NCBI GenBank assembly: GCA_027922465.2
Contig: BQMF02000293.1
Location: forward strand, 62,001 to 126,000
DNA length: 64,000 nucleotides
From: Turritopsis dohrnii
Lineage: Eukaryota > Cnidaria > Hydrozoa > Anthoathecata > Oceaniidae
Direction: 5' to 3'
Shown here: positions 1 through 58,905 of the stretch, one piece after another
How positions within the stretch are numbered: position 1 is the stretch's first letter
Layout: every line of letters begins with the position of its first letter
Translations under genes and position numbers: made by a program
Notes under the pieces: model-generated
The model's input: only the letters and a program-made list of their open reading frames with translations
Databases searched by the model: none
What the model was told of the DNA's origin: nothing

Positions 1-8
1 TCAAATGC

Positions 9-2987: not shown

Positions 2988-3523
2988 ACTAGTTTGCCAG
3001 TATATTTTAATAAGTCCTCCTATCCTTGGCATTATTCCTAGCCCTATTCCGCACTTCCAACAAGACCAATGCTATCAATATTCCTTTATCATATCTCCTT
3101 ACCGTCATCTAGTCCTATTTTAGGTTTTAGATTGCTTTTTGAGTCCAAGTTCTATCTTTACTGCCATGGAGGAATTAATTTATAAGTTTATATATATTAA
3201 CAGTTTTTTTTTTCTAATATTCGGTTCTAACCTCAATTTGGTCCTACACATCGGTTTACATTACGTTAGTCCTTAGGTTTAGTCATGTCCCATTTCCTAG
3301 TTTTCATAACTTCAGTCGACATTCTTTTTGGTTTACGACTATCTGGTTCTACTCTACCTTCACCTTATCCACACCTAGCCACGTCCCATACTACGACTGT
3401 CTCTCTAATTTCTGCCATTATTTTTTTTAATATACAATATTTTTTAGACGCTGCATATACATAATCTTCTCAATTTCCAGGTGAAGAGCCAATTGTAAAA
3501 TTTTGGAGATACTGTGAAATATA

Positions 3524-3525
<2 letters not shown>

Positions 3526-3567
<42 letters not shown>
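3526..3567 (+). repeat. (ATT)n tail of LINE copy 1
   Basis: About 14 uninterrupted ATT units directly after the LINE 3' UTR. Such microsatellite tails mark the 3' end of this LINE group. Confidence 0.85.
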
Positions 3568-3568
<1 letters not shown>

Positions 3569-5560: not shown

Positions 5561-5564
5561 AAAT

Positions 5565-6600
5565 AAAAGTGTTACTCTTCGTACATTATAAAACATGAAC
5601 CAACCAGAACCGACCAGAACCCAGCAGGAACCAACCAAGAACCGACCAGCATCTAGCACACAGACCCAGGACCACAAAATCAAAGGTGAGACCCGCGGCC
5701 CTAAAATGAAGGGTGGGACCAGGGATCTTAACATCAAAGGTGGGACCCAGGACCCAGGACTCTCAAATCAAAAGTTAGACCCTGGATCTGGGTGCCGAAG
5801 ATGGTGCACTAAAATTCTCTAAACAAACAATTCTCTTGAAAAGATATATATTAAACCCACAGTAATTGTGTTGTTTTGCGTAATAATGATGTATTGCACT
5901 GTAGTTTTTCAGCTTCGCAAAGTGGATCTTTTTGAAAGTGCAGTAATTTCATAGACTGGTGCAGAGTAAGCAAGTGATATTGTGAAGTATTAAAATTGAT
6001 TTGTGCACTACTTACTTAAATCGTGTGGGTGATTTTTTGTAACATGGTAAAAGGCCTACCAGGAAAGTGGGATACGGGAATCGGGACTCCCAACCCTACA
6101 TACAACAGGTGGGACCCAAGACCAGGGAGCCTATTATGTGATAGGTGGGACACTGGCTTCAGATCCTTTCCCTTATACAATTGTAGCTCGGAGAACTGTG
6201 AATTCTTTCTTGTTAACTTCAAAGCTGGAGCCACGTGTGATAATGTAAATGTTAATCAAAACTTCTTTTAACAAAAAGTGTCAAATGATTTTCTCATATC
6301 GTGCTTTGAATCTTGCGTGATATTTCCGAAAACAAATGAAATTTATTTTTGTCACTGACAATGCTCGGCACCCGGGTCTGACTTTTGAATTGAGAGTCCT
6401 GGGTCCTGAGTCTCACCTTTGATGTTAGGATCCTGGGTTCTACCTTTGATTTTTATGGTCCCGGGTCCCGTTTGCAGGGTCTGTATTGATGGGTCTCTGC
6501 TGGGTTCTGGTTGGTTCTTGGTGGGTTCCTGCTGGATTCTGGTGGGTTCCTGCTGGGTTCTGGTCTGTTCATGTTTTATCAAGTAGGGTTACTCTTGTGG
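5565..6600. mobile_element. Foldback element with ~240-bp inverted arms of CAGAACC-type repeats
   Basis: The left arm (about 5576-5810) and right arm (about 6352-6595) are inverted copies of each other. Both start near ataaaacatgaac. They run through repeats of the type accagaacccagcaggaacc, then blocks like aacatcaaaggtgggaccca, and end near gggtgccga. The roughly 540-bp centre holds more gtgggac words. Arms built of internal short repeats around an unrelated centre are typical of foldback-type DNA elements. No protein is visible; the frames at 5595-5822 (+) and 6352-6582 (-) only translate the arms. The element lies in the intron just upstream of the exon at 6673. Confidence 0.7.
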
Positions 6601-6672
6601 ATTAGTATAATAATAATAATAACTTACATTTTATAAAATTTATTTTCTGATACTTCATTGTTCCTGTTATAG

Positions 6673-9322
6673 TGGAAGCTGGTTATGAATCACAACTTGT
6701 TCGAAGAGATCCGAATGTTCTTGTCTATACATGTTGTAAAGATGTATATCAGAAAGTCACTCTGACTGGAGAACAATTGCCAAAAGAAGTAACTTTAGTT
6801 AGAAGTGGAAAGACAGTGCCATTGCCTATGAATTTTGACGAATACATGAAGAAATGCGAAATATTCCTCAACGAATATTTCAAAATTGACATGAACAACA
6901 TAAATAGAATCAGCAAAAAAATTCACTTTCCTCCGTCATATATGATTAATGATAGAGTATCAAAGTTAGCTGACCAATTCCACATTGATCACACAGTTAT
7001 AGTAACGCACTATGATGTAATTGAGCATTGTAAGCTGTTTAAGTTAAATTTGGATGAGATATCGAAAAACTTTCAAATAGATCTTGGACTAGTTGGTAAT
7101 GGAGACAAGGAGATCATTTTATGCAATTACGAATTGAACTATCTTTGTGTTTTACACTACAGTGAAGCACATGATGAAATGCATGCCTTGAAAGACTTGG
7201 AAGTGGGAGAAAGCTATTTTCGACTTTTTTTCTATCTACTCAGTTGTATTCTTGGGAAGGACTTTTCATATATGAGTGTTGTAGCTGCACCGAAGATGAG
7301 TGCTGATTGTGAAAATCCATTGATTTTAGCTGAATCAGATGTAGCTGCCATATCCGAAAGACTGAAATCATTAGGCTGTAATCGAAGCATTAACACACCT
7401 ATCATAGATCGAAAAGAATCATTTGAGAAGTGCTTGATGTTTCTGAGTCTTTTATTAGCATTTGTAGCTACTACTCAAGTGTGTTTCAATGTCTTGTCTG
7501 AAAGTGTTGCTGAGAAAGTTCTTTCAGTATGGTTAACAACCGAACAACTAGAAGTTGTCCTTTCTGATAACTTTTGGAAGATTGTTGTGGGTGGATATGG
7601 TAGTGGTAAGACGTTGATAGCACGGTATCTATTGAAGCATCTAATGAAATATTCCAACATGGCCACAGATATATATTTTGTGCTGTTTGACAATTCCAGT
7701 TTATTAATGAAAAGTATGGAAGATTATTGCAAAGATTTAAGGATGCAGTTCAAAAAAGAGGGACGTAATTTGATATGTCACAATGCTTTAGGAATAGGCA
7801 AATTTCTAAAATATGAAATTGAAGAACTCTTTCCTGACTCATCTGGTTCCATTGATTTCACCATTTCGAATATGCTGTTAGCCATCAAGCAGAGATCACA
7901 GAAAGCCAGCCGTCGCTTTCATTTGATTGTAGATGAAGTTGATGCTGAAGTAATTAATGAAGTTGAAGCAGCGAATTTGAAGAAAATATTTTCAGATGAT
8001 AGAGATGCGATGAAAGAATCTCATATACTATTTGTTCTTCGATCTATGGAAAAGAAACGAGTATACATATCTGAGGGAACATCTTACATACACAAATCAT
8101 ATCAATATTATCGTGATTGCGGAATGAAATTGGTTGAGTTAACTTATTCAATGCGCGTTACTATGCAGGTTTACGAAATTATGAAGATCTGTATGGATGG
8201 CATCACCTCTCCAACAGTAATTCCACATGCAGGTGGAGATTTAGAAAGGCAATCAAAACAAACAAATCTAACAAACATTGCTTCTTCCTCACCTAGCTAT
8301 AAAGAAAAACCAAGAAAACTGACAAATGTTGCTAGTCTGGAAGAAGAACTATCAAATGCAGATAGTGGTTCTTCCTCATCGTCTATTAAAGTCAATGATA
8401 ATGGTGAACAGCATAACAATATTTCTTTTCCTCCACTGATGGGTAGTAAAACTCATAGTGTTGTCTTAAGTCATGATGATCCCAATACAATAGATCACTT
8501 TGCAAAGGTGTGTGAACAGAAATACCAAGGCTCAGCTAACAAATTGGAAACCCTTTACTTTTTCCAAAAATCTAAATTCTGCCAGCATCGTATACATGGT
8601 CACAAGCCAGAACTGATCTTCTTAAATTTGGATGGAGACAATGAGTTAGCAAAGATAGAAATAATGTCATTGCTTTCTGTTGCCTTAACGAAGGTGTTTC
8701 TTTCTAAAGCTACAATCAATGGTGGTAAAAGGTTGATTGTGTGCAGCAATAAAGAAGAAATTGATTTATGCAAATCTATAAAGACATTTAACAAACAAAC
8801 TACATGTTTTCATGAAGCTGAAAACTCCACACACATTGATCATTTTCAAAGGTTTGATACAATTATTACAACTTATGAAGGTTCCAGAGGTTTGGAGTTC
8901 CCTTTAGTTATTGTAATTATAAACCCTGATGATTATTTTAAAAGGCAGTACTTTATTGAAATGATCTCCAGATGTACTGATCACTTAGTTCTCATTGTAC
9001 CATATTGTTACAAAATTTCCAAAGTTCTTTCAAATGAAAGGGAAACTGTGAGAAATATGTTGGAAAAATTAATTTATTTCAAGAATCCGAAGATTGTAAT
9101 CAACATAACATCGTATAAACTTGATGGCGGCATGGATAGTGAGGCACCACTGAAGAACTCCAGTCATATGTCTTTCAAGTATTCTACAGATGGTGTTGAT
9201 AAAAATTTGATGTTGACTGAGATAAAGATCAACAAAAATAATGAGGAATACTATCAGTTGAAATGTTGTAAAGAATACAATTCTCCAGAGGTGAATGAAT
9301 ACAATGATGTTTCCTTGTCAAA
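6673..9322 (+). CDS. Large internal exon of a P-loop NTPase (superfamily-1 helicase-like fold), possible degenerate NERD-like N-terminus
   Basis: An open exon of 883 codons between a clean acceptor (ttcctgttatag, ending 6672) and a donor (AA|GTAAGT at 9323). The apparent GTG start at 6672 is an artefact of the splice junction. Counting that codon as residue 1, Walker A (GGYGSGKT) is at about 307-314 and Walker B (HLIVDEVD) at about 417-424. An arginine motif (YSMRVT) lies near 490, a Ser/Asn-rich insert at about 520-585, and TTYEGSRGLEFP, resembling SF1 motif V, at about 733-744. The 150 residues before Walker A resemble the strand-helix pattern of NERD/PD-(D/E)XK domains, but I cannot see the catalytic E-x-K, so that call is weak. 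I infer a cytosolic ATP-dependent switch or helicase-like protein. The closest groups I know are invertebrate SF1/STAND-like proteins of unknown role. The entry phase matches the later exons, and the gene continues into the exon at 9402. Confidence 0.8.
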
Positions 9323-9401
9323 GTAAGTTACAAAACTTTATTTTAGTAATGTTTTTGGTTTTTAACATAATTATGACATTTATTTTTCCATATTTTTATA
9401 G

Positions 9402-9677
9402 CTATGTACTTCCTATGCCAGCAACTAATGGAACAGTAAAACGAATATCTTCAAGGAAAGTGAAGTTCTTGTGGAATCATCCTGGAAATCATTTTCGACT
9501 TGAACTTTCAACACAATCAGGAGCATCAATCAGCATTGTAAATAGATATCAAAGACATTCATTTGAAATAACAACTGATAATTTCTCCACCTATACTCTG
9601 ATAGTTTATGCTATTTGCAAGTTTGGTGGCCTTTCATCAGATGCATTGAAGATGTCTTATATGCCAAATGAACAGAG
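9402..9677 (+). CDS. Exon encoding a fibronectin type III-like domain
   Basis: The 79-bp intron 9323-9401 (GTAAGT...tttttatag) joins this exon in frame to the P-loop exon: the 'aa' left at 9321-9322 plus 'c' gives Asn. It encodes about 92 residues with an FN3-like layout. VKFLWNHP gives the B-strand Trp, followed by alternating strands. YTLIVYAICKFGG and the S-S-D-A turn resemble the F-G region with its Tyr. It ends at a donor, gag|gtatgt, at 9678. FN3 domains are usually binding modules, so an extracellular-like or partner-binding role next to a P-loop is notable. The FN3 call is from pattern only. Confidence 0.65.
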
Positions 9678-9823: not shown

Positions 9824-9867
9824 AGCAGAAAGTAGCCATGACAGCCAAGATCTAACAGACAATGAAG
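9824..9867 (+). CDS. Mini-exon A: acidic Ser-rich linker (44 bp)
   Basis: The acceptor is tttcgataatag (ends 9823) and the donor aag|gtacat. Spliced after the FN3 exon it reads RAESSHDSQDLTDNEG and leaves one base, setting the phase 1 used by every later exon of the array. It has the same acidic Ser/Asp/Asn composition as the array exons but different flanking intron sequence, so it may be their ancestor or their upstream neighbour. Confidence 0.6.
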
Positions 9868-11340
9868 GTACATATTCTCAAATCTTGACCAAGTGATTTG
9901 ATAGTCTAATTTTGACATGTCAGAATATTGAAACTCTACATCAAGGTAAATCTTCAGAAACTTGAAGTTGGAGGTTATTTTGTTGGAGTAAAAAATTATA
10001 AAAAATAATAATGTGAATCTATAAACTAAAAACAAATCAAATAATTGAAGAACAAATAATTGAATACTGTTTAATACGAAATCATAGATTTTCAAAGTCA
10101 AATACGAATAGTGCCAATTAAAAAGTACGCTTAAAAAACCAGTAAGTGCAGTATGTCAAAGTGATTACAAGCTTAAGAAGAAGATACAACATAATGAATC
10201 AGTTTCAGCCTCTCGTAGAAAAATTTAAATATAAATAAATTGAAGCAAAAGCATGTTAATATATCGAACCAGTAATGCTAAGTTAAGCCAGAGTATGACT
10301 TATGTAATTTTCAACTTTTAACTTGATGTTACAATGTTATATGATAGTATAATGATGTTTTGATTAACCCTATCATTGCAATTACCATCTAGTTTATGTG
10401 TAGAACTTGGAATCAATTGGTTTCCAAAATATTTTTTTCTTTTTGGTAATTTTTTTTACATAAAAATATTTTTTCTACTAAAAGGTGGTATAGGTGACTC
10501 ATTAATTTGAAGAACTGTGCTCATTTATATATGAAATTGGAAGCAGCTTGATCCATTTCCAAGTAATACATGGTACAAAGTCAAACTTGTTTCAGCACTT
10601 ATTTTATGATACTTCTTGCAATTTTACTTGTGTTGTTTTTGATGCCATTGTTGGGCCTTGTTCAGTGGTTATCGCTCTTGGAATTCATGCTGCAGGCTGG
10701 GGTTCAATTACACAAGGCGGCCGTTCAGTATGCACAATTCAATGTTCTGCAGTACTGGGTACAGTATCTGATACATTGTTGATCATCAGATTTTGCAAAA
10801 AATCATCCAAAACAGAACAGGTCATTGATTGGATATTTGTCACTTAGGAGATTATCCAATCTTTCAGGGCCTTGCAAAGAGGGAATTTCGCAACAGCTAA
10901 ACCATAAATGGCTGAAATTTTGCCTACATGCTAATTGGTCAAAAAGGTTACCAAAAATCTGGGGGCAGCAGCTGGTCAACTGGCTTTGATTATTTGAGTG
11001 AGTGAGTGTCAACTGGTTTAAAATATTCTCATTATGACATCACTAAAAAATTCCTTGAAACTTTCACAAAACCTGACAAGGCCAAATAGAAATAGAAAAA
11101 GGTTAACCTGTCTACGCATGATTCTTTATTACCTACGGTAAGGACTGGTGATATTGCAAGCCTTTAAACTAGCATGACCAGTGAGGGCAAAAATACTCAT
11201 ATACAGGCCTTTACAAAGTCTCTAAATCTCAATAAGACTTTTTTAAGTGACTGTATGGCAGTTTTCTCACTGAGTTGGTGTAAAAGTTCATAAATGAAAA
11301 ACAAATTTTTCTTCTTTGAAATCAAGTCCTATCCATGGTG
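9868..11340. other. Intron-like DNA, no exon recognised
   Basis: This lies between mini-exon A and the array. The only frame near 300 bp (10548-10847) has no recognisable domain and no splice context, so I do not call it. The plain reading is an intron of about 2.2 kb. Confidence 0.4.
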
Positions 11341-11730
11341 ATAGCCAGACGTTCCATCAAGTTTTTAGTTTTGATTAACTGTGAATCCCTATGAGCCAAT
11401 TTGCGATAATTTTCATAAAATTCTCACTTCAAAACGAGGCGTAGTTGGTGTATGGTCGCTTTAGAATAAATTGGAGAGGTTGCTTTAACAATGGGCAGTT
11501 TTCATGTCGTTTTATCATTTGAACTCCACTTTCATCAACATCCTCGTCATTTGAATAGTCATATGCATCACCGTAGCTTCTCATAGTCTACAGACCTATA
11601 TAGTCAGCAGGCTTATGTTTGCAAGTACTCTGAAGTGCTTATCTGAGACATGGTCTTGAAAATCTCTCTCTCCCTGATTTAATGATTCAATGATCCAAAT
11701 TTCTTATATTATTAAGGATGTTATTAAGGA

Positions 11731-12036
11731 TTGTGCAGCGATGGTGTAGTGGTTAGTACCTTTGAGTGCGACCGCTGTGACCCGTGTTCGAGTCCAGTCA
11801 TGTCGTATCTCAATAAACCACTCCGATGCGCTTTAAAAGCAGCGTATCAGCCCATTAGGAGCCATCGACTGACTGCACACTGGCCTTCGGGCAAGTTAGA
11901 GCAATGCTATACGTATCTCTGGCGGTAAGTCAACTAACAGTTGCAAGTCGGCGGGTGGAAGAACCAACCATTACGGATGGAAGCCCAAGGACTAAAAACT
12001 CCCGTTACTTACTTACTTACTTACTTACTTACTATA
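11731..12036 (+). mobile_element. tRNA-derived SINE with (ACTT)n tail
   Basis: The head resembles a tRNA: pol III box A (TGGTGTAGTGG) near 11742 and box B (GTTCGAGTCC) near 11788. A body of about 200 bp follows, then a (ACTT)n tail at 12003-12033. It sits in the intron, only 20-odd bp before the acceptor of exon B at 12056. Sister units without it read straight through (ttattaaggatattttttc), so the insertion came after the units arose. Confidence 0.8.
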
Positions 12037-12055
12037 TTTTTTCTTTTTTTGCTAG

Positions 12056-12109
12056 ATACTAAAAAAGATGATAGCAATAGTAGTGATTCCGAAATACCAG
12101 AATTACAAG
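12056..12109 (+). CDS. Mini-exon B (54 bp)
   Basis: Acceptor gctag, donor caag|gtaaaaag. With the incoming G it reads DTKKDDSNSSDSEIPELQ, leaving one base (phase 1-1). It is an acidic, Ser-rich linker with a hydrophobic IPEL end. The same exon recurs at 18100 and 21994. Confidence 0.65.
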
Positions 12110-12557
12110 GTAAAAAGTTGTTTTTTTCCCTTCATACTACTTAAACTTTTTAACTTGAAAACAGCTAATTGTAACAGCCAAAACACTAAAGCTTTGCTTT
12201 TGAATAACAAGTAACAAGTATTGGGTTCAGCCTCTTATGTTGGGTCTTAAGTCTGCTTTTGTCTAGATGGTTTGACAGTTGTTTCTCACCTTCATTGTGT
12301 GTATTATTATATACATCGTCGTAGGTTCTCATAGTGTGCAGACTAATTTTCATCAACATCCTCGTCGTGTGAATAGTCATATGCATCGCCGTAGCTTCTC
12401 ATAGTCTACAGACCTATGTAGTCAGCAGTCTTATGTTTGCAAGTACTCTGAAGTGCTTATCTGAGACATGGCCTTGAAAATGACACTCTCCCTGATTTAA
12501 TGATTCAATGATCCCAATTTCTTATATTATTAAGGATATTTTTTCCTTTTTTGCTAG

Positions 12558-12626
12558 ATACTGAAAAAGATGATAACAATAGTAGTGATTCCGAAAGTAC
12601 TGGTGGAATGCCTGCTCTTATAACAG
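12558..12626 (+). CDS. Mini-exon C (69 bp)
   Basis: Acceptor ttgctag, donor acag|gtataaag, phase 1-1. It reads DTEKDDNNSSDSESTGG and then MPALIT. Later copies at 18605, 19624 and 22496 have SK instead of SE and end in IN. Confidence 0.65.
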
Positions 12627-13133
12627 GTATAAAGTTGTTATTTTCCCCTCATACAATTTAACTTTTTAACTTGAAAACAGCTAATTGTAACAGCCAAAAC
12701 ACTAAAGCTTTGCTTTTAAATAACAAGTAACAAGTAATGAGTTCAGCCTCTTATGTTGGGTCTTAAAGGGATTGTCCGGTAAAAAATAATAATTTGTGAT
12801 TTTATGTACTTTTGGTAAAGAAACAACAATTTACCGTTTAAACGTTTTGAATCTTCGTTGCTTAGATTAAAATCAACGATTAATATTGGCCATGTTAACA
12901 CAGCACATTTATTTTGATGAATGATCTTCAGCGCTAAAAGGACTGGGTAAATAATCTATTATGCGTAATTATGCGAATGACGTATTAGTTTGCCTTCTGT
13001 TCACGTACTGCATAGTACGTCCGCTGGAATGTACAGTTTACCCCCGGTAATTAAAGAATATTTACGAATTAAAAACTAATGAAAATCGATGATTTTTAAT
13101 GTAAAACCTTAAATATAAAATTTTTGAAATTAA

Positions 13134-13352
13134 GTGATTGAAAAAAAATTTTTTTTTATTGAAAAAACATTTAAAAATGAACGCCAACAATATGCCAATG
13201 AAGGAGTGAAAGGATTTCAATTTAAACCCGAGAGATCTCTTGCCGCAGAAGAGACTGGAACTCATCTTTTTGAGGACGGAGAGTTCTTGCTTCTGCCGTT
13301 AACTGACTCACGGGAGCAAAAAGCAGTAACAGATTGGTGTAAAACAACGTAG
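13134..13352 (+). pseudogene. ORF fragment resembling a P2X7-type intracellular (Cys-rich) domain start
   Basis: This 72-codon frame inside the Kolobok-like element contains VKGFQFKPE, an acidic stretch and, near the end, VTDWCK. That order (YQFEP-like motif, acidic linker, DWC) recalls the start of the P2X purinoceptor-7 intracellular domain found in many cnidarian transposon-associated proteins. The Cys/His-rich part that should follow is missing: the frame stops two codons after WCK. It could be a captured or decayed domain, or chance similarity. Confidence 0.3.
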
Positions 13353-13884
13353 AAACTGAGCCAGACAACAGTTCTTATACTGGGCGCGAAGTTTAGTATA
13401 ACTGATTTTGTAAACATTTTTCAAAACATTTTTCTTCTTTTCTTCTTTCATTTTTCAAAACATAAAAAAAGTTATCTTCGGTAAGTTCGTTCTTTTTATC
13501 GCAGCGATCCACGCTTGTCTTAATTTTGGATCAATTGGCAACTTTAAAAATGTTTCGTGCTTTTAATTTGTACAATTTAACGCTACACGGTTAGTTAGAC
13601 ATGGTGCACAAAACTGACAACTAGATTCAGTAGCGTCCGCGAAAGAAGAACAAGGCTCGCCTAAAAAGAGGCTTCTCTAGAAAGACTGTGGAGCACTTCT
13701 TTTCACGCGTCCGAACATTGATTTTACGTTTTTTCCCAGCAGGCAAAAACCTTTTTATTTTATTGTAAAGGGGGCTGGAAACTAAGATGCTTATTAATTT
13801 TATTGAATAACACGAAAACGAGTCCAACTGGTCCCACTTATGTTTTCATATTCTTTCGGTAGGTGAACAAAGGAATTCGTATAA

Positions 13885-14158
13885 AGCCGGATCTCCACTA
13901 GACGAAAAAGTTCGCGCGAAGCGATTTTTTTCGCGACGAAAAAATCGTCAAGTGGAGATCACTCTTAAAATCGTCTGAAAAAGAATATTAATATTAACAG
14001 TATTAATATTAACAGTAGTGTGTCCTTCCACATTGTCAGCCATCTTGAAACTGGTTATGGTGGTCATGTTCGAAAGTTGGAAATTACTGCAATGCGCATG
14101 TGTCGTTGCGAAAATTTAAGACGATCGTCTTAAAAGTCGTCTAGATGGAGATCCGGCT
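13885..14158. mobile_element. Harbinger-type MITE nested in the Kolobok-like element (274 bp)
   Basis: Inverted ends agccggatctccactagacg / cgtctagatggagatccggct are flanked by TAA on both sides. The three-base TWA-type duplication fits PIF/Harbinger. TTCGCG/CGCGAA words lie near the left end. Confidence 0.75.
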
Positions 14159-15579
14159 TAACGAAGGAAATTTCAAAATTACCTTAGCAACGGTGGTGGT
14201 TCTCCCTAGCATAGCAACAGAGAATAAAGCGATTAGTCGATTCAATGGAGCGCGAAAACTAATAAAATGAGTTTGACATGTCTTAGTTCATTAAATATTT
14301 GATATGTTTTACAATCATTTTTGTCTTCAACAATATGTTTTACAATAAAATGTCTGGAAAACATTTTTTTTTCCAACGACAGACAAAACACGAGACACGA
14401 CATATAAGTTTAGACATACGTATGTCTTTATACAAACAGATGTTTAATTTTTCTGGCGCACTTATAGCGCGTCAAAAAGGCACTACTGCGTCTGTGCTAA
14501 TGGGCCTATTAAAAAAATATACTGCGACTGCGCGCCAGAGTTATGTCGTCGCATAAAGTTAAAACTCCGTTACCAGTGGGTTTCTCACACCGTTGCAGAC
14601 GCGTAAGTTGACTGAAAAGAATTCTCATCAAGATTCGGCCTGGGAACAAAATCTTTACAAGAAAATGTCGCAATAAATTTCTCATAACGAAAAAGAAAAA
14701 AAGAAAGAAGTTTCTCGAAGATTGTGGGGCGGTACTTTAATTCAAAAGCATTTGTTTCATATTCAGTATTATTGCTTGTACTTTCGTAACTCGAGAAGAC
14801 GGGGGGCTTATACATTTTCAAAAAAAAGACCGCTGAAAAATCGAAAGCATTGCAATGGATAAAGAAGATGTCGAAATCGCTCTTTCTCTCGCCTCATTTG
14901 CTTATTGTGTTATGATATTGAAGGCAAACTACTACGTCACAGCAGAAATATTACAATAGCCTCACTTTCGCGAGTTGATTTTTCAAAACAAGATGGCTAT
15001 GCAGAAGGACGCAAACAGCGCGAAGGTTTTTATAAATCTTCGTGTAAATAAGAAACTAGCTTATGTTTGAAGAAAAGGAATTGGAAATTACTTGTTTAAG
15101 TACTAAAGGAATTATGTTAAGAATTTTTGTTTTTTACCGGACAATCCCTTTAAGTCTGGTTTTGTCTAGATGGTTTGACAGTTGTTTCTCACCTTCGTTG
15201 TGTGTATTATCATATACATCGTCGTAAGTTCTCATAGTGTACAGACTAATTTTCATCACCATCCTCGTCGTGTGATTAGTCATATGCATCACCGTAGCTT
15301 CTCAAAGTTTACAGATCTATGTAGTCAGCAGGCTTGTGTTTGCAAGTTCATCAACATCCTTGGTTGTGTGAATAGTCATTTGCGTCGTCGTGGCTTCTGA
15401 TAATCTACAGACCTATGTAGTCATGTTTGCAAGTACTCTGAAGTGCTTATCTGAGACATGGTCTTGAAAATATCTCTCACTCTCTCTCTCTCTCTCACTC
15501 TCTCTCTCTCTCTCTGATTTAATGATCCACTAATCCAAATTTCTTATATTAATAAGAATATTATTTTGTTTTTTGCTAG

Positions 15580-15651
15580 ACAGTGATAGCAGTTACAACA
15601 ACAATAGTAGTGATTCCGAAAGTAACGACGGAACTGACGAGATGACAACAG
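15580..15651 (+). CDS. Mini-exon D (72 bp)
   Basis: Acceptor ttttgctag, donor acag|gtattaag, phase 1-1. It reads DSDSSYNNNSSDSESND then GTDEMTT. It occurs once only in the array. The intron before it carries a (TC)n run at about 15475-15517. Confidence 0.65.
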
Positions 15652-16208
15652 GTATTAAGTTGTTATTTTCCCTTCATACGATTTAACTTTGTAACTTGAA
15701 AACAGCTAATTTTAGAGAATGATAAACCTAAACAGGAAATTGTTTATCATAATGAAGGTGTTTGATTGACAGCTTCTGATCTGACAACTGTGGTAGTTAC
15801 CTTTAGTCCAGATATACGGAAGCCGATGTCTTTCTGTGATGTGTATTGTGTTTTGTTTTTTTTGTTTTAAATCCATTATATTTGGATTATCGAGTTCATA
15901 TAATAAATTCTCAATTTTTAAATATTTTACTGAAGTCTGTAAATCTATAGATGGTTTAACAGTTGCTTCTCATCTTCGTCGTGTGCATTATCATATACAT
16001 CGTCGTAGGTTCTCATAGTGTCAGACTTATGTTTAGTCTGACAGTTCAGACCTCAAAATAAGCCAATCTATGTAGTCAGGAGGCGTATGTTTGCTAGTAC
16101 TCTGTAGTGCTTATCTGAGACATGGCCTTGAAAAGCTCTCTCTCCCCGATTTAATGGTTCAATCCAATTTTCTTATATCAATAGGGATATTGTTTCTGTT
16201 TTTGCTAG

Positions 16209-16283
16209 ATAATGGTAACAGTAACAGCAACAATAGTAATGATTCCGAAAGTAATGACGAAACGTTTAGCAAGATGAAAGCAG
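16209..16283 (+). CDS. Mini-exon E (75 bp)
   Basis: Acceptor tttgctag, donor gcag|gtataaag, phase 1-1. It reads DNGNSNSNNSNDSESNDE then TFSKMKA. Copies at 19088, 20107 and 22979 alternate KM and KR near the end. Confidence 0.65.
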
Positions 16284-16810
16284 GTATAAAGTTGTTATTT
16301 TCCCCTCATACAACTTAACTTTGTAACTTGAAAACAACTAATTCTAATAGCCAAAACACAAAAGCTTTGCTTTTGAATAACAAGTAACAAGTTCACCCTC
16401 TTATGTTGGGAATTCAGCCTCTTATGTTGGGTCTTAAGTCTGGTTTTGTCTAGATGGTTTAACAGTTGCTTTTTTGATTAACTGTGAATCCCTATGAGGA
16501 AATTTGCAATAATTTCGATAAAATTCTCACTTCAAAACGAGGTGTAGTTGGTGTATGGTCGCTTTAAAATAGATTGGAGAGGTTGCTTTAACAATGGCAA
16601 TTTTCATGCCGTTTTATTGTTTGAACTCCACTTCCATCAACACCTTGATCATGTGAACAGTAATATGCATCGCCGTAGCTTTTCATAGTCTACAGAGCTA
16701 TGTAGTCAGCAGTCTTATGTTTGCAAGTACTCTGAAGTGCTTATCTGAGACATGGCCTTGAAAATGACTCTCTCCCTGATTTAATGATTCAATGATCCCA
16801 ATTTCTTATA

Positions 16811-18068
16811 CTAGCATGTAGCTTCAGCTAAAAAATGCCCCCGCGCTCAAGCATTCCAATGTGTACACACAGCAAGCTATACATTGCAAGCTATACAACG
16901 GAAACAAAAACATATTTTTGTCCGAAAACTCAAAAAAATTCAGATGAATGTTTTTGCAAGTCTTTACACAGAAACAAATATATACATTTAAACTTTTGTT
17001 AACATTGTATAAACTAAACACAATAAAAACAAGAAGAATTGCGAGCACGATCATTTCGAAATGGGAGATCAGATTTGAAAACTCCTTGACGGATGGTCTT
17101 CACGGTTTTTCACTTACGTTGTAATTGAGTTAAACTTTCTTTAGGATAACTTTTTTTTTATTGATGCTATTATACCTTTCAAAAAGTGTAATAAATGCTT
17201 AACAAGTAATATCAGAAGTATTTGCTACAAACAAAAGAAATGTGTGAACTGAAACCATGGATACGTATTTTATAATCAAAAAAAGATTTGTTAAAGAAAT
17301 TCTGTAAGAGCCAAAAGAAAAAAAACAAACTTTTTTTAAAAAAAAATCAAAGCAAAAAATCCATTAGAAATCTGCGTTTTAAACTTTGATTCAAAAGAAA
17401 AAGTAGCCAATGTTTATAAAAAAAAAAAACAACAAGAAAATGTAAAAAGCTTTTACTGATCATGATCACACACTAGTAGTATGATAAGGTTTGGCGCAAG
17501 GTGGACAGTTAAAATAGAAAAACACGAAGAAAGACAATTTGTAATATAGCTTTCTTGCATACACAGAAATCCAATTAAAATCTTTGCCAAAAATTAGTGC
17601 GTTGAACAAAGTTTATTGAATGAAATATTTAGAGCTACAACATATATATATATACAATAATAAAATGTATGGTTGGCAAAATTTCAGATTTCAAGCTGTG
17701 CTTCAAAATCCTTGTCGTTCACTTCACTAAAACAACACAAAAGTAACACGAAAAATGTCTAAGCAATTTTAACATACGATCTTCCTAAATAACATAGTAT
17801 AATACAATAATAAATTAGGAAAGAGATACAAAAAAACATTCTGTCTCTCCCACTTACAGTACCATGCTTTGAAACGGAAAAAAAGCAAAGTCAGCTAATA
17901 ATTGTATATAATTGTACATTAATAATTGTATTCCACCGTGTAACGTCAACACGAAAGTTGGAGGATGAAGATGATGATGATGATGATGAACAAAATCGGA
18001 AACTGACATTCGCCTATCTCGTGAAACTACTATGCCTCCTCGCTCGCTTACGCTCGCTGCGGGGGCAA
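16811..18068 (-). mobile_element. Insert X, copy 1: Helitron/Helentron-like non-autonomous element (tentative)
   Basis: Compared with an X-free unit (ttcttatattattaagga), a 1,258-bp segment starts ctagcatg and ends gggggcaa, inserted between A and T with no duplication beyond one ambiguous base. Read on the minus strand it begins TTGCCCCCGC and ends in a short hairpin (TAGCT-GA-AGCTA) followed by CATGCTAG. A CTAG end after a hairpin and an A^T target without duplication are Helitron traits. The internal GCGGGGGCA next to the hairpin, matching the 5' end inverted, recalls Helentron asymmetric TIRs. The 5' TT instead of TC and the lack of a Rep/helicase ORF keep this tentative. Confidence 0.45.
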
Positions 18069-18099
18069 TTATTAAGGATATTTTTTCTTTGTTTGCTAG

Positions 18100-18153
18100 A
18101 TACTAAAAAAGATGATAGCAATAGTAGTGATTCCGAAATACCAGAATTACAAG
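18100..18153 (+). CDS. Mini-exon B, second copy
   Basis: Same 54-bp exon and splice sites as at 12056, but the intron before it contains X instead of the SINE. Confidence 0.65.
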
Positions 18154-18604
18154 GTAAAAAGTTGTTTTTTTCCCTTTATACTACTTAAACTTTTTAACTT
18201 GAAAACAGCTAATTGTAACAGCCAAAACACTAAAGCTTTGCTTTTGAATAACAAGTAACAAGTATTGAGTTCAGCCTCTTATGTTGGGTCTTAAGTCTGC
18301 TTTTGTCTAGATGGTTTGACAGTTGTTTCTCACCTTCATTGTGTGTATTATTATATTATACATCGTCGTAGGTTCTCATAGTGTGCAGACTAATTTTCAT
18401 CAACATCCTCGTCGTGTGAATAGTCATATGCATCGCCGTAGCTTCTCATAGTCTACAGATCTATGTAGTCAGCAGTCTTATGTTTGCAAGTACTCTGAAG
18501 TGCTTATCTGAGACATGGTCTTGAAAATGACTCTCTCCCTGATTTAATGATTCAATGATCCGAATTTCATATATTATTAAGGATATTTTTTCCTTTTTTG
18601 CTAG

Positions 18605-18673
18605 ATACTGAAAAAGATGATAACAATAGTAGTGATTCCAAAAGTACTGGCGGAATGCCTGCTCTTATAAATG
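18605..18673 (+). CDS. Mini-exon C, second copy
   Basis: 69 bp, phase 1-1. It has SKSTGG in place of SESTGG. Its donor is aaatg|gtataaag, weaker at -1/-2 than that of exon C. Confidence 0.6.
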
Positions 18674-19087
18674 GTATAAAGTTGTTATTTTCCCTTCATA
18701 CAATTTAACTTTTTAACTTGAAAACAGCTAATTGTAACAGCCAAAACACTAAAGCTTTGCTTTTGAATAACAAGTAACAATTAACGACTTCTGCCTCTTA
18801 TGTTGTGTCTTAAGTCTGGTTTTGTCTAGATGGTTTAACAGTTGCTTCTCATCTTCGTCGTGTGCATTATCATATACATCGTCGTAGGTTCTCATAGTGT
18901 CAGACTTATGTTTAGTCTGACAGTTCAGACCTCAAAATAAGCCAATCTATGTAGTCAGGAGGCGTATGTTTGCTAGTACTCTGTAGTGCTTATCTGAGAC
19001 ATGGCCTTGAAAAGCTCTCTCTCCCCGATTTAATGGTTCAATCCAATTTTCTTATATCAATAGGGATATTATTTCTTTTTTTGCTAG

Positions 19088-19162
19088 ATAATGGTAACAG
19101 TAACAGCAACAATAGTAATGATTCCGAAAGTAATGACGAAACGTTTAGCAAGAGGAAAGCAG
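19088..19162 (+). CDS. Mini-exon E, second copy
   Basis: 75 bp, phase 1-1, ending in KRKA (AGG instead of ATG). Confidence 0.6.
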
Positions 19163-19623
19163 GTATAAAGTTGTTATTTTCCCCTCATACAACTTAACTT
19201 TGTAACTTGAAAACAACTAATTCTAATAGCCAAAACACAAAAGCTTTGCTTTTGAATAAGAAGTAACAAGTTCACCCTGTTATGTTGGGAATTCAGCCTC
19301 TTATGTTGGGTCTTAAGTCTGCTTTTGTCTAGATGGTTTGACAGTTGTTTCTCACCTTCATTGTGTGTATTATTATATACATCGTCGTAGGTTCTCATAG
19401 TGTGCAGACTAATTTTCATCAACATCCTCGTCGTGTGAATAGTCATATGCATCGCCGTAGCTTCTCATAGTCTACAGATCTATGTAGTCAGCAGTCTTAT
19501 GTTTGCAAGTACTCTGAAGTGCTTATCTGAGACATGGTCTTGAAAATGACTCTCTCCCTGATTTAATGATTCAATGATCCGAATTTCATATATTATTAAG
19601 GATATTTTTTCCTTTTTTGCTAG

Positions 19624-19692
19624 ATACTGAAAAAGATGATAACAATAGTAGTGATTCCAAAAGTACTGGCGGAATGCCTGCTCTTATAAATG
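19624..19692 (+). CDS. Mini-exon C, third copy
   Basis: 69 bp, phase 1-1, identical to the copy at 18605. It arose with the 1,019-bp duplication. Confidence 0.6.
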
Positions 19693-20106
19693 GTATAAAG
19701 TTGTTATTTTCCCTTCATACAATTTAACTTTTTAACTTGAAAACAGCTAATTGTAACAGCCAAAACACTAAAGCTTTGCTTTTGAATAACAAGTAACAAT
19801 TAACGACTTCTGCCTCTTATGTTGTGTCTTAAGTCTGGTTTTGTCTAGATGGTTTAACAGTTGCTTCTCATCTTCGTCGTGTGCATTATCATATACATCG
19901 TCGTAGGTTCTCATAGTGTCAGACTTATGTTTAGTCTGACAGTTCAGACCTCAAAATAAGCCAATCTATGTAGTCAGGAGGTGTATGTTTGCTAGTACTC
20001 TGTAGTGCTTATCTGAGACATGGCCTTGAAAAGCTCTCTCTCCCCGATTTAATGGTTCAATCCAATTTTCTTATATCAATAGGGATATTATTTCTTTTTT
20101 TGCTAG

Positions 20107-20181
20107 ATAATGGTAACAGTAACAGCAACAATAGTAATGATTCCGAAAGTAATGACGAAACGTTTAGCAAGATGAAAGCAG
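20107..20181 (+). CDS. Mini-exon E, third copy
   Basis: 75 bp, phase 1-1, with KMKA as in the first copy. Confidence 0.6.
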
Positions 20182-20708
20182 GTATAAAGTTGTTATTTTC
20201 CCCTCATACAACTTAACTTTGTAACTTGAAAACAACTAATTCTAATAGCCAAAACACAAAAGCTTTGCTTTTGAATAACAAGTAACAAGTTCACCCTCTT
20301 ATGTTGGGAATTCAGCCTCTTATGTTGGGTCTTAAGTCTGGTTTTGTCTAGATGGTTTAACAGTTGCTTTTTTGATTAACTGTGAATCCCTATGAGGAAA
20401 TTTGCAATAATTTCGATAAAATTCTCACTTCAAAACGAGGTGTAGTTGGTGTATGGTCGCTTTAAAATAGATTGGAGAGGTTGCTTTAACAATGGCAATT
20501 TTCATGCCGTTTTATTGTTTGAACTCCACTTCCATCAACACCTTGATCATGTGAACAGTAATATGCATCGCCGTAGCTTTTCATAGTCTACAGAGCTATG
20601 TAGTCAGCAGTCTTATGTTTGCAAGTACTCTGAAGTGCTTATCTGAGACATGGCCTTGAAAATGACTCTCTCCCTGATTTAATGATTCAATGATCCCAAT
20701 TTCTTATA

Positions 20709-21962
20709 CTAGCATGTAGCTTTAGCTAAAAAATGCCCCCGCGCTCAAGCATTCCAATGTGTACACACAGCAAGCTATACATTGCAAGCTATACAACGGA
20801 AACAAAAACATATTTTTGTCCGAAAACTCAAAAAAATTCAGATGAATGTTTTTGCAAGTCTTTACACAGAAACAAATATATACATTTAAACTTTTGTTAA
20901 CATTGTATAAACTAAACACAATAAAAACAAGAAGAATTGCGAGCACGATCATTTCGAAATGGGAGATCAGATTTGAAAACTCCTTGACGGATGGTCTTCA
21001 CGGTTTTTCACTTACGTTGTAATTGAGTTAAACTTTCTTTAGGATAACTTTTTTTTATTGATGCTAATATACCTTTCAAAAAGTGTAATAAATGCTTAAC
21101 AAGTAATATCAGAAGTATTTGCTACAAACAAAAGAAATGTGTGAACTGAAACCATGGATACGTATTTTATAATCAAAAAAAGATTTGTTAAAGAAATTCT
21201 GTAAGAGCCAAAAGAAAAAAAACAAACTTTTTTAAAAAAAAATCAAAGCAAAAAATCCATTAGAAATCTGCGTTTTAAACTTTGATTCAAAACAAAAAGT
21301 AGCCAATGTTTATAAAAAAAAAACGACAAGAAAATGTAAAAAGCTTTTACTGATCATGATCACACACTAGTAGTATGATTAGGTTTGGCGCAAGGTGGAC
21401 AGTTAAAATAGAAAAACACGAAGAAAGACAATTTGTAATATAGCTTTCTTGCATACACAGAAATCCAATTAAAATCTTTGCCAAAAATTAGTGCGTTGAA
21501 CAAAGTTTATTGAATGAAATATTTAGAGCTACAACATATATATATATACAATAATAAAATGTATGGTTGGCAAAATTTCAGATTTCAAGCTGTGCTTCAA
21601 AATCCTTGTCGTTCACTTCACTAAAACAACACAAAAGTAACACGAAAAATGTCTAAGCAATTTTAGCATACGATCTTCCTAAATAACATAGTATAATACA
21701 ATAATAAATTAGGAAAGAGATACAAAAAAACATTCTGTCTCTCCCACTTACAGTACCATGCTTTGAAACGGAAAAAAAGCAAAGTCAGCTAATAATTGTA
21801 TATAATTGTACATTAATAATTGTATTCCACCGTGTAACGTCAACACGAAAGTTGGAGGATGAAGATGATGATGATGATGATGAACAAAATCGGAAACTGA
21901 CATTCGCCTATCTCGTGAAACTACTATGCCTCCTCGCTCGCTTACGCTCGCTGCGGGGGCAA
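20709..21962 (-). mobile_element. Insert X, copy 2
   Basis: Nearly identical to 16811-18068. It differs in homopolymer lengths, and the hairpin loop is TT (tagctttagcta) instead of TC on the plus strand. It spread by the surrounding tandem duplication, not by transposition, because its flanks are the same. Confidence 0.45.
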
Positions 21963-21993
21963 TTATTAAGGATATTTTTTCTTTGTTTGCTAG

Positions 21994-22047
21994 ATACTAA
22001 AAAAGATGATAGCAATAGTAGTGATTCCGAAATACCAGAATTACAAG
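21994..22047 (+). CDS. Mini-exon B, third copy
   Basis: 54 bp, phase 1-1, identical to the copy at 18100. Confidence 0.6.
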
Positions 22048-22495
22048 GTAAAAAGTTGTTTTTTTCCCTTTATACTACTTAAACTTTTTAACTTGAAAAC
22101 AGCTAATTGTAACAGCCAAAACACTAAAGCTTTGCTTTTGAATAACAAGTAACAAGTATTGAGTTCAGCCTCTTATGTTGGGTCTTAAGTCTGCTTTTGT
22201 CTAGATGGTTTGACAGTTGTTTCTCACCTTCATTGTGTGTATTATTATATACATCGTCGTAGGTTCTCATAGTGTGCAGACTAATTTTCATCAACATCCT
22301 CGTCGTGTGAATAGTCATATGCATCGCCGTAGCTTCTCATAGTCTACAGATCTATGTAGTCAGCAGTCTTATGTTTGCAAGTACTCTGAAGTGCTTATCT
22401 GAGACATGGTCTTGAAAATGACTCTCTCCCTGATTTAATGATTCAATGATCCGAATTTCATATATTATTAAGGATATTTTTTCCTTTTTTGCTAG

Positions 22496-22564
22496 ATACT
22501 GAAAAAGATGATAACAATAGTAGTGATTCCAAAAGTACTGGCGGAATGCCTGCTCTTATAAATG
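22496..22564 (+). CDS. Mini-exon C, fourth copy
   Basis: 69 bp, phase 1-1, identical to the copy at 18605. Confidence 0.6.
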
Positions 22565-22978
22565 GTATAAAGTTGTTATTTTCCCTTCATACAATTTAAC
22601 TTTTTAACTTGAAAACAGCTAATTGTAACAGCCAAAACACTAAAGCTTTGCTTTTGAATAACAAGTAACAATTAACGACTTCTGCCTCTTATGTTGTGTC
22701 TTAAGTCTGGTTTTGTCTAGATGGTTTAACAGTTGCTTCTCATCTTCGTCGTGTGCATTATCATATACATCGTCGTAGGTTCTCATAGTGTCAGACTTAT
22801 GTTTAGTCTGACAGTTCAGACCTCAAAATAAGCCAATCTATGTAGTCAGGAGGCGTATGTTTGCTAGTACTCTGTAGTGCTTATCTGAGACATGGCCTTG
22901 AAAAGCTCTCTCTCCCCGATTTAATGGTTCAATCCAATTTTCTTATATCAATAGGGATATTATTTCTTTTTTTGCTAG

Positions 22979-23053
22979 ATAATGGTAACAGTAACAGCAA
23001 CAATAGTAATGATTCCGAAAGTAATGACGAAACGTTTAGCAAGAGGAAAGCAG
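22979..23053 (+). CDS. Mini-exon E, fourth copy
   Basis: 75 bp, phase 1-1, with KRKA as at 19088. Confidence 0.6.
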
Positions 23054-23580
23054 GTATAAAGTTGTTATTTTCCCCTCATACAACTTAACTTTGTAACTTG
23101 AAAACAACTAATTCTAATAGCCAAAACACAAAAGCTTTGCTTTTGAATAACAAGTAACAAGTTCACCCTCTTATGTTGGGAATTCAGCCTCTTATGTTGG
23201 GTCTTAAGTCTGGTTTTGTCTAGATGGTTTAACAGTTGCTTTTTTGATTAACTGTGAATCCCTATGAGGAAATTTGCAATAATTTCGATAAAATTCTCAC
23301 TTCAAAACGAGGTGTAGTTGGTGTATGGTCGCTTTAAAATAGATTGGAGAGGTTGCTTTAACAATGGCAATTTTCATGCCGTTTTATTGTTTGAACTCCA
23401 CTTCCATCAACACCTTGATCATGTTAACAGTAATATGCATCGCCGTAGCTTTTCATAGTCTACAGAGCTATGTAGTCAGCAGTCTTATGTTTGCAAGTAC
23501 TCTGAAGTGCTTATCTGAGACATGGCCTTGAAAATGACTCTCTCCCTGATTTAATGATTCAATGATCCCAATTTCTTATA

Positions 23581-24838
23581 CTAGCATGTAGCTTTAGCTA
23601 AAAAATGCCCCCGCGCTCAAGCATTCCAATGTGTACACACAGCAAGCTATACATTGCAAGCTATACAACGGAAACAAAAACATATTTTTGTCCGAAAACT
23701 CAAAAAAATTCAGATGAATGTTTTTGCAAGTCTTTACACAGAAACAAATATATACATTTAAACTTTTGTTAACATTGTATAAACTAAACACAATAAAAAC
23801 AAGAAGAATTGCGAGCACGATCATTTCGAAATGGGAGATCAGATTTGAAAACTCCTTGACGGATGGTCTTCACGGTTTTTCACTTACGTTGTAATTGAGT
23901 TAAACTTTCTTTAGGATAACTTTTTTTTATTGATGCTAATATACCTTTCAAAAAGTGTAATAAATGCTTAACAAGTAATATCAGAAGTATTTGCTACAAA
24001 CAAAAGAAATGTGTGAACTGAAACCATGGATACGTATTTTATAATCAAAAAAAGATTTGTTAAAGAAATTCTGTAAGAGCCAAAAGAAAAAAAACAAACT
24101 TTTTTAAAAAAAAAATCAAAGCAAAAAATCCATTAGAAATCTGCGTTTTAAACTTTGATTCAAAACAAAAAGTAGCCAATGTTTATAAAAAAAAAACGAC
24201 AAGAAAATGTAAAAAGCTTTTACTGATCATGATCACACACTAGTAGTATGATTAGGTTTGGCGCAAGGTGGACAGTTAAAATAGAAAAACACGAAGAAAG
24301 ACAATTTGTAATATAGCTTTCTTGCATACACAGAAATCCAATTAAAATCTTTGCCAAAAATTAGTGCGTTGAACAAAGTTTATTGAATGAAATATTTAGA
24401 GCTACAACATATATATATATACAATAATAAAATGTATGGTTGGCAAAATTTCAGATTTCAAGCTGTGCTTCAAAATCCTTGTCGTTCACTTCACTAAAAC
24501 AACACAAAAGTAACACGAAAAATGTCTAAGCAATTTTAGCATACGATCTTCCTAAATAACATAGTATAATACAATAATAAATTAGGAAAGAGATACAAAA
24601 AAACATTCTGTCTCTCCCACTTACAGTACCATGCTTTGAAACGGAAAAAAAGCAAAGTCAGCTAATAATTGTATATAATTGTATATTAATAATTGTATTC
24701 CACCGTGTAACGTCAACACGAAAGTTGGAGGATGAAGATGATGATGATGATGATGATGAACAAAATCGGAAACTGACATTCGCCTATCTCGTGAAACTAC
24801 TATGCCTCCTCGCTCGCTTACGCTCGCTGCGGGGGCAA
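23581..24838 (-). mobile_element. Insert X, copy 3
   Basis: Third near-identical copy, with the TT hairpin loop and one extra GAT unit in its (GAT)n run near 24733. Confidence 0.45.
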
Positions 24839-24869
24839 TTATTAAGGATATTTTTTCTTTGTTTGCTAG

Positions 24870-24935
24870 AGACTGAAGAAGATGATAACAATAGTAGTGA
24901 TTCCGGAAGTATTGACGGAATGCCAGATGCACGAA
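24870..24935 (+). CDS. Mini-exon F (66 bp), last of the array
   Basis: Acceptor gtttgctag, donor acgaa|gtaaaaag (A at -1, so weaker), phase 1-1. It reads ETEEDDNNSSDSGSID then GMPDAR. It looks like a B/C hybrid: the B position after X, but C-like coding sequence. Confidence 0.6.
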
Positions 24936-25206
24936 GTAAAAAGTTGTTATTTTCCCTTCATACTACTTAAAGTTTTTAACTTGAAAACAGCTAATTGTAA
25001 CAGCCAAAACACTAAAGCTTTGCTTTTTAATAATAACAAACAATTAACGACTTCTGCCTCTTATGTTGTGTCTTAAGTCTGCTTTTGTCTAGATGGTTTA
25101 ACAGTTGCTTCTCATCTTCGTCGTGTGCATTATCATATACATCGTCGTAGGTTCTCATAGTATGCAGACTTATGTTTAGCCTGACAGTTCAGACCTCAAA
25201 GTAAGC

Positions 25207-25610
25207 CAAAGTGGGAACGTACTAAAGTCTGTTCAAAAAATATGTGCACTAATTTCAGCTTTTATATAAAAACCAGGCTCAAGGGAATTTATGTAATTTG
25301 CTAAATCTGGTTTCCACATGGTAACTGAAATTAGTGCACATATTTTTTGAACAGACTATAGTGTAAAGCGGGAAAGTATCTTAAATGTTCCTTTGATACT
25401 AATATTTTACTGGATTAAAACCCCACCAACTGAATCGATTGAATTGATTTGGGTTTTTGAGTGGTTTTTTGAAAAGTAAGTGAATAATAACCCCCACCTA
25501 ACTCAACAACTCAATCGATTCTGCTGGTGAGGTTTTAATCCAGTATAATATAAATATCAAAGTAACTTTTAAGATATTTTTCAGCTTTATACTAGTTTGT
25601 TCCCACTTTG
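25207..25610. mobile_element. MITE with long inverted arms, split by a second MITE
   Basis: The arms start CAAAGTGGGAAC on each side and continue through inverted matches to ctggattaaaacc and aatcgattga, about 100 bp per arm. The left arm is interrupted at 25224 by the element 25225-25358. With that removed, gtactagtgtaaagc aligns with the right arm's aactagtataaagc. Confidence 0.8.
25225..25358. mobile_element. Mariner-type hairpin MITE (134 bp), TA duplication
   Basis: The inverted ends share AGTCTGTTCAAAAAATATGT and continue past it (gcactaatttcag), about 33 bp each and almost perfect. The element is flanked by TA on both sides and inserted in the left arm of 25207-25610. The AGTCTGTTCAAAA end resembles mariner termini. 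Confidence 0.85.
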
Positions 25611-27170: not shown

Positions 27171-27219
27171 TGATCCTTTCAGGTCGAACTGGTATTGGTA
27201 AAACACAGTTATTAGCATG
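27171..27219 (+). pseudogene. Start of a second P-loop exon, truncated by a LINE
   Basis: After the acceptor ctttttttattag (ends 27170) the exon opens in phase 1, matching the array exons. With the incoming G it reads VILSGRTGIGKTQLLAW. GRTGIGKT is a full Walker A motif of NACHT/AAA style. Homology to LINE RT sequence begins about 27220, and the combined frame hits TAG at 27263. As it stands, this transcript would end 17 residues into the domain. It may be a host exon broken by the LINE, or a terminal exon of a truncated product. Confidence 0.6.
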
Positions 27220-27985
27220 GTCATATTTCAAGACAGATGGAATCGAAGATGGAAATCTTCAGTAGAAACTTGCAAGAGACTTTGCTAATGTGGCAGACTG
27301 GCTAGAGAAAAAGGACCTAATCATGAATATGAAACAAGGTAAAACTGAATGTATAGTGTTTGGCTCTCATAAGAAGGTATTAGGGAAATCGTTAAACATA
27401 AAGTACCGCCATAATTCAATTTCAAATACTACCACTTACAAGTACTTAGGAGTTAAACTAGACCAGACTCTCACTCTTACTATTCACGTTAAGGAGACCC
27501 TACAGAAGGCAACTGACCGTTTGAACTTGCTGCAAAGACTGCGTCCCCAGTTAGCAAAGAAATCAGCATTCACAATCTATCAATCGCTACTGATTCCCAT
27601 ATTTACATACTGTTCGATTGTTACGATGCACACAAATAACAGCTACAAGCAGAAAATCAAAACACTTGAATCTCGTTCAGAAAAGATCATTAACATAGGG
27701 AAACCAGGTACCATGAAGATTGCATCCATAAACCATCTGATGAGAAGGAGACTCTGTGAGCAAGTATTGAAATGTCTTAATGGTGATGTATGTGAAAACT
27801 TTGAGAGCTATTTCGCAAAAATGAAAAACAACACCAGAAATGTTACTAAGAGTTCCTAAAATTAGGCTAGAAAGCACCCAAAAAAGTTTTTATTTTGCTG
27901 GCACGAAGCATTTTAATGAGTTACCTGCTTACATTAGGGGTGCAGGTACACTCTCTAAGTTTTTAACATTTTTTAATCAATAAAC
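27220..27985 (+). mobile_element. 5'-truncated LINE fragment (RT C-terminus)
   Basis: The frame from about 27266 to 27859 carries GKTECIVFG, YKYLGVKLD and a C-terminal tail like those of the LINE at 44.8-45.5 kb. An A/T-rich 3' end follows (caataaac). The YFKTDGIE stretch before the stop aligns with VIFFNHND of the other copy, so the LINE probably begins near 27220. Confidence 0.75.
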
Positions 27986-58750: not shown

Positions 58751-58905
58751 GGGCCTTACGAAACTACGACGGCAACGTGGACGACGACGTGAGGCAAACA
58801 AAAGATTCACTTTACTCCATAGATTGCTTTAGAATGGAAGTCATTTCACACTATACTTTTGGGAAATGTTTTTAATCAAATCGAATAAAATGTGAAGTTT
58901 GTCAA

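Follow-up and report, generated by a model that had tools for sequence, protein, structure and literature searches.

The 64,000-nucleotide (nt) stretch of Turritopsis dohrnii DNA analysed here (the window; assembly GCA_027922465.2, contig BQMF02000293.1, positions 62,001 to 126,000, hereafter C293:62001-126000) contains an ATPase gene with an array of 13 short, tandemly arranged exons encoding acidic segments. It is probable that this gene is functional, belongs to a large family (itself probably lineage-specific) and carries the array as an amplified acidic 3' tail module. Neighbouring array exons were homologous, had equal phase at both ends and were 3n nt long, as in a tandemly duplicated symmetric exon array, and most likely represent a variant of exon duplication, a type of gene change already known. 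An original prediction, made from the letters of this stretch, had proposed tandem-duplicated, frame-neutral exons giving an acidic Ser/Asn segment of variable length, and this was supported. The family plan would be an ATPase exon, an FN3 exon, an adaptor exon A and exchangeable 3' modules; in the window gene, homologues of the first three follow one another in this order. The exons of the gene were as follows.

6673..9322, plus strand, big exon encoding the ATPase, 882 full codons without stop, phase 1 in and phase 2 out, donor at 9323
9402..9677, plus strand, FN3 domain exon (by paralog profile), 276 nt, phase 2-2
9824..9867, plus strand, exon A, 44 nt (3n+2), adaptor from phase 2 to phase 1
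12056..12109, plus strand, acidic exon B1, 54 nt
12558..12626, plus strand, acidic exon C1, 69 nt
15580..15651, plus strand, acidic exon D1, 72 nt
16209..16283, plus strand, acidic exon E1, 75 nt
18100..18153, plus strand, acidic exon B2
18605..18673, plus strand, acidic exon C2
19088..19162, plus strand, acidic exon E2, a recombinant unit with a B-type intron behind
19624..19692, plus strand, acidic exon C3
20107..20181, plus strand, acidic exon E3
21994..22047, plus strand, acidic exon B3
22496..22564, plus strand, acidic exon C4
22979..23053, plus strand, acidic exon E4
24870..24935, plus strand, acidic exon F, the array's last, 66 nt, donor GAA/GTAAAA, the only one without G at -1

All 13 segments at 12056-24935 had AG/GT borders, a length of 3n (54, 66, 69, 72 or 75 nt), phase 1-1 and an open frame; TTGCTAG stood directly before each of them, and GTAAAAAG, GTATAAAG or GTATTAAG (GTA donor) directly after, so that the mini-exons of 54-75 nt that had been described from the sequence were found again in 13 of 13 cases. 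Read-through from any of the 13 into the next intron reached a stop after 11 more codons. The types followed one another in the order B C D E B C E C E B C E F, and sequence comparison bore out that the introns around them were homologous to one another. The core, given as NNSSDSE in the prediction, was not uniform: it was NNSSDSE in C1 and D, SNSSDSE in B, NNSSDSK in the other three C copies, NNSNDSE in all four E copies and NNSSDSG in F.

The whole assembly (436 megabases, 891 contigs) was searched with the B1 unit, and 14 places were obtained, namely the 13 array units and C527:199666, 17 kilobases (kb) behind the big exon of the closest paralog. The acidic exon there (L050:670-768) was single, 99 nt long and phase 1-1, coded for DSKKDYSSDSNSSNDSESDEETDEMSMLSKMTT, and was followed by an intron of ~424 base pairs (bp) and a short exon encoding EQDENPGPSTR and a stop, with AATAAA behind. 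The sequence before it matched window positions 10947-10995 (86%) and 11063-11426 (69%), and the positions therefore correspond. Since the C527 exon lies next to the stop-bearing terminal exon, the array resembles a penultimate exon amplified within a C-terminal tail more than a linker joining P-loop modules. The terminal exon EQDENPGPS(T/M)R, with its stop, was found in all three paralogs in which it was read (C527, C494 and C541), 17 kb behind the big exon in C494 and 34 kb behind it in C541, and DNA matches to it occurred on other contigs besides; it may not be general in the family, as the C44 gene ends with a vWA exon.

By comparison with C527, the placement of the array between two P-loop modules, as originally proposed, was not borne out, and it is very unlikely that a linker tunable by alternative splicing, or a phospho-acceptor spacer, lies at that place. 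All array copies are symmetric, and donor position +5, where G is usual, was A in 12 of the 13 array exons and T in one (D1), which could favour skipping; but the homologous C527 exon adjoins the terminal exon, the downstream P-loop comprised ~15 residues, and motifs of the CK2 type were not enriched. S/T-x-x-D/E motifs numbered 20, against a shuffled mean of 22.3 (1590 of 2000 shuffles reached 20), and a CK2-type phospho-acceptor repeat was rejected, as was the CK2-like spacer of the original prediction. A second P-loop module had also been expected to begin downstream; the frame at 27171 matched Pfam NACHT over ~15 residues at an expect value (E) of 0.08 (13.2 bits, against a cut-off of 26.7), and an NLR/NACHT or other P-loop module at this position was discarded as below the cut-off. 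The same frame provided a candidate for the 3' end of the gene.

27171..27265, plus strand, candidate, unproven terminal exon, 31 amino acids (aa) to the stop, with a pyrimidine-rich acceptor and no homology established

Its stop was followed by a reverse-transcriptase fragment, as judged by eye.

The array would have grown by unequal tandem duplication, in part recently, within the following region.

15930..25176, plus strand, region of recent tandem duplication, containing the block copies given below

The block copies 15930-19350 and 19828-23241 were 99.2% alike, and 19061-22288 and 21967-25176 were 96.3% alike, and introns of different types were ~4-25% different where alignable. There were five exon types, the remaining eight exons being further B, C and E copies within blocks 96-99% alike, so the array does not reflect 13 independent events. 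The intron behind E2 was 95% alike to the B type and 73% to the E type, as expected from exchange between non-equivalent units. In a FastTree tree of the introns, C1 was spoiled by an insertion within the 330 bp used, and D1 was doubtful. Two elements helped to order the growth steps: a TTAA element at 12767-15149, which occurred once in the array, and a ~1.25-kb element, which lay at the same place in each block and was copied along with the blocks. As observations in their own right, the former spans 2383 bp, is inserted between TTAA sites in the intron after C1 and has the inverted ends AGGGATTGTCCGGTAAAAA; the latter has a GC-rich end and three copies (about 16814-18067, 20712-21961 and 23584-24837); and a nested palindromic insertion at about 25209-25605 lies where intron homology behind exon F stops. 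The big exons of the window and C527 had a synonymous divergence (dS) of 0.23, much more than the 1-4% separating the blocks, and the latest expansions therefore most likely postdate the gene split. A copy number inflated by duplicate haplotype pieces, as an assembly artefact, is highly improbable; long stretches are 99% alike within 10 kb, but haplotype duplication alone cannot give five diverged types and a recombinant unit, and the copies are tandem, in one orientation and on one contig. The homologous exon-intron unit occurs once in the closest paralog and 13 times in the window gene; as every exchange product keeps the frame, the array would have been enlarged stepwise by unequal exchange between neighbouring units.

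The product would be a disordered acidic C-terminal tail of ~290 residues, with its frame held open and its sequence free. Exon A and the array together encode 307 aa with 79 D/E, 25 K/R, 66 S and 49 N, a composition that agrees with such a tail. A length of 3n was found in all six exon types including that of C527, and among 10 between-type pairs, which are not independent, gaps were in frame in 15 of 23 cases in exons and in 4 of 21 in flanks. In a neutral simulation under three rate settings, the probability that all five types stay intact was 0.0004, 0.013 or 0.09, which is support rather than proof. Exons were less different than flanks in four of the six within-type pairs, none significantly. 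A ratio of nonsynonymous to synonymous change (dN/dS) was also tried on the mini-exons (pS 0.35, pN 0.16 over 15 non-independent pairs), and the result was not used because the alignment step is biased to low pN.

Several results weigh against a maintained tail. The raw mafft gap count was not clearly in frame (exons 12 of 26, introns 4 of 25 and 5 of 21). Of the 10 between-type pairs, eight had exons more divergent than their flanks, the exceptions being E1-C527 and D1-C527; uncorrected p values were 0.0015-0.007 in three of all 16 pairs. Purifying selection on residues is therefore not seen. The C527 unit, used as a genome query, gave 18 other places with both exon and flanks matched and a further two with a short part matched; four such dispersed relatives were read, of which three had an internal stop and one a frameshift, and these broken copies make it a weaker claim that the acidic exon is always maintained. 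The terminal exon known from the paralogs was detected neither after 25200 in the window nor in C293:126001-146000, and a whole-genome DNA search gave no match to it anywhere on C293, so the 3' end may be broken. Apart from the gap count, these points, together with the eight of 13 exons that are copies of three types in closely similar blocks, would suit a gene whose 3' half is decaying, with the TPR and terminal exons lost and the acidic units as a neutral intronic repeat, intact mainly because young. Such decay is unlikely; against it, the big exon is still under purifying selection, and 3n length, open frame and splice sites were kept in all five diverged types. The dispersed copies (C51:273700, C432:188890, C537:15760 and C147:204250; loci L051-L053 and L055), three of which have long flanks in common, may be an exon-carrying repeat or old 3' gene ends.

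On the window branch the big exon is under purifying selection: over three trios, with C494 left out, its dN/dS was 0.24-0.28 there, 0.35-0.41 for the paired paralog and 0.30-0.31 for the third branch. Walker A (GGYGSGKT) and DEVD were present in this exon, in agreement with the P-loop module predicted upstream of the array, together with C-terminal motifs that we take to be helicase-like. With the 882-aa exon as a genome query, 51 of 311 candidates were scored and 63 matches obtained; with a second query, from a paralog ~39% identical, 54 of 338 candidates were scored and 59 matches obtained. Over both match lists, the family occupied at least 72 distinct places, some of which may be two haplotypes of one gene, possibly including C495 and C344; in-frame stops were present in four of them (C494, C268, C325:18842 and C644). 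The C495 and C344 paralogs (L033, L034) were 96-99% alike over ~7 kb of 3' sequence and could be young duplicates or separated haplotypes. For the big-exon alignment, 26 members were taken from 30 loci, leaving out C494 (one in-frame stop) and the partial loci L011, L018 and L019; mean column identity was 55%, and Walker A, DEVD or DELD/DDID, and the C-terminal motifs were kept. Pfam, which was also used to examine a possible SF1/SF2 helicase assignment, gave at E<=0.01 AAA_22 in 23 of the 26 members, NPHP3_N in 20, DEAD in five and Helicase_C in four, all four being under the cut-off in the window exon itself. A protein database search scored 7975 candidates, none at E<=0.001, and has little weight as the database is possibly poor in animal proteins; a PDB sequence search with the big exon gave no convincing relative, NCBIfam gave nothing close to its cut-offs, and single-sequence structure prediction of the 882-aa exon was unusable (pLDDT 33.6). 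Comparison with the paralogs' 1.5-kb flanks gave no recognisable upstream exon in window 1-6670.

The exon at 9402-9677 can be assigned to FN3 with good confidence, as judged from paralog profiles. A profile of 18 paralogous rows matched titin FN3 at E=6.7e-11, and the fn3 domain was found in 11 of these rows, with a best E of 0.0009, but the window copy was not among them. Exon A was recognisably alignable in 8 of 16 paralogs tried. Its length was 41, 44 or 47 nt in seven of them and the window, 3n+2 in every case. In the window, this 44-bp exon enters in phase 2 and sets phase 1, as predicted.

The 3' modules were surveyed in 9.9 kb downstream of seven close paralogs, and the acidic array was absent from this sequence in all seven. 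Behind exon A, seven TPR exons were measured in C494 and three in C527, typed as TPR_12/TPR_10, and all 10 were 126 nt and phase 1-1. C44 had a single vWA exon, in phase 1 and closed by a stop (VWA_2, 25.1 bits, cut-off 27), and the paralog at C293:147292 had ankyrin repeats behind the FN3 exon; no module was recognised in the 9.9 kb of the other four of the seven, partly judged by eye. TPR gave no match in the window, and the TPR exons of C527, between exon A and the acidic exon, had no window counterpart. Phase-1 modules (TPR arrays, vWA, acidic exons) sit on the same strand behind exon A in different paralogs, and would be spliced onto it. The acidic tail may serve the ATPase as a charged bristle or spacer, replacing the TPR stretch, with its length set by copy number; splice choice among array copies is possible, and transcription, translation and a binding or spacing role of the tail are presumed from the genomic sequence. 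It is a rather improbable extension that exon A, with its phase-1 end, offers a permanent socket at which dozens of ATPases exchange and amplify TPR, vWA, ankyrin and acidic modules, with the array diversifying under selection for change and copy number varying between individuals, perhaps as an immune or self-recognition repertoire.

Among known systems, the PEVK exons of titin are an example of tandem duplication of symmetric exons. The acidic array resembles them in its short same-phase tandem exons, its unstructured charged stretch and its in-frame gain and loss, but it occupies the slot of a TPR array in two close paralogs, and homologous introns are part of its units, one of which is a recombinant of recent date. 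It shares with the TPR arrays of C494 and C527 the slot after exon A, phase 1-1 and local tandem duplication, and the unit size is similar (~535 bp for the C494 TPR unit, ~500 bp for acidic units without insertions); the TPR exons encode 42-aa repeats at a constant 126 nt, whereas acidic exons are 54-99 nt. Nephrocystin-3-like proteins combine NPHP3_N with TPR; in this family NPHP3_N was seen in 20 of the 26 aligned members and was under the cut-off in the window exon, and TPR was seen in C494 and C527 and gave no match in the window. In marine-animal conflict and immunity families with variable C-termini, as presented in PMC8195603, TRADD-N/Death-type proteins show lineage-specific expansion and exchangeable vWA or ankyrin C-terminal regions. 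Both features would also hold for the ATPase family; in the gene here the 5' exons, where such N-terminal domains would be encoded, were not found, and the words FN3 and SF1 have zero occurrences in the main text of that paper. No description of the array or the gene family was found in searches of openly licensed papers.

The array would present exon amplification caught in progress: the sister gene has one exon, and the array has five diverged types, one recombinant unit and recent copies that are nearly identical, with the frame kept in all. Should the number of exon copies differ between individuals, the array would directly exemplify how exon copy number alters the length of a disordered tail. 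The family with exchangeable 3' modules may be more interesting than the array itself, and it provides a natural test of fixed intron phase permitting C-terminal module swaps.

Elsewhere in the window, long open frames at 330-2987 (885 aa) and 58876-61911 (1011 aa) resembled, by eye, the endonuclease/reverse transcriptase of long interspersed nuclear elements. Between the window and the next paralog, single-exon frames at C293:133126-134055 (310 aa) and C293:140099-141013 (305 aa; L038/L039) resembled seven-helix receptors, also by eye.

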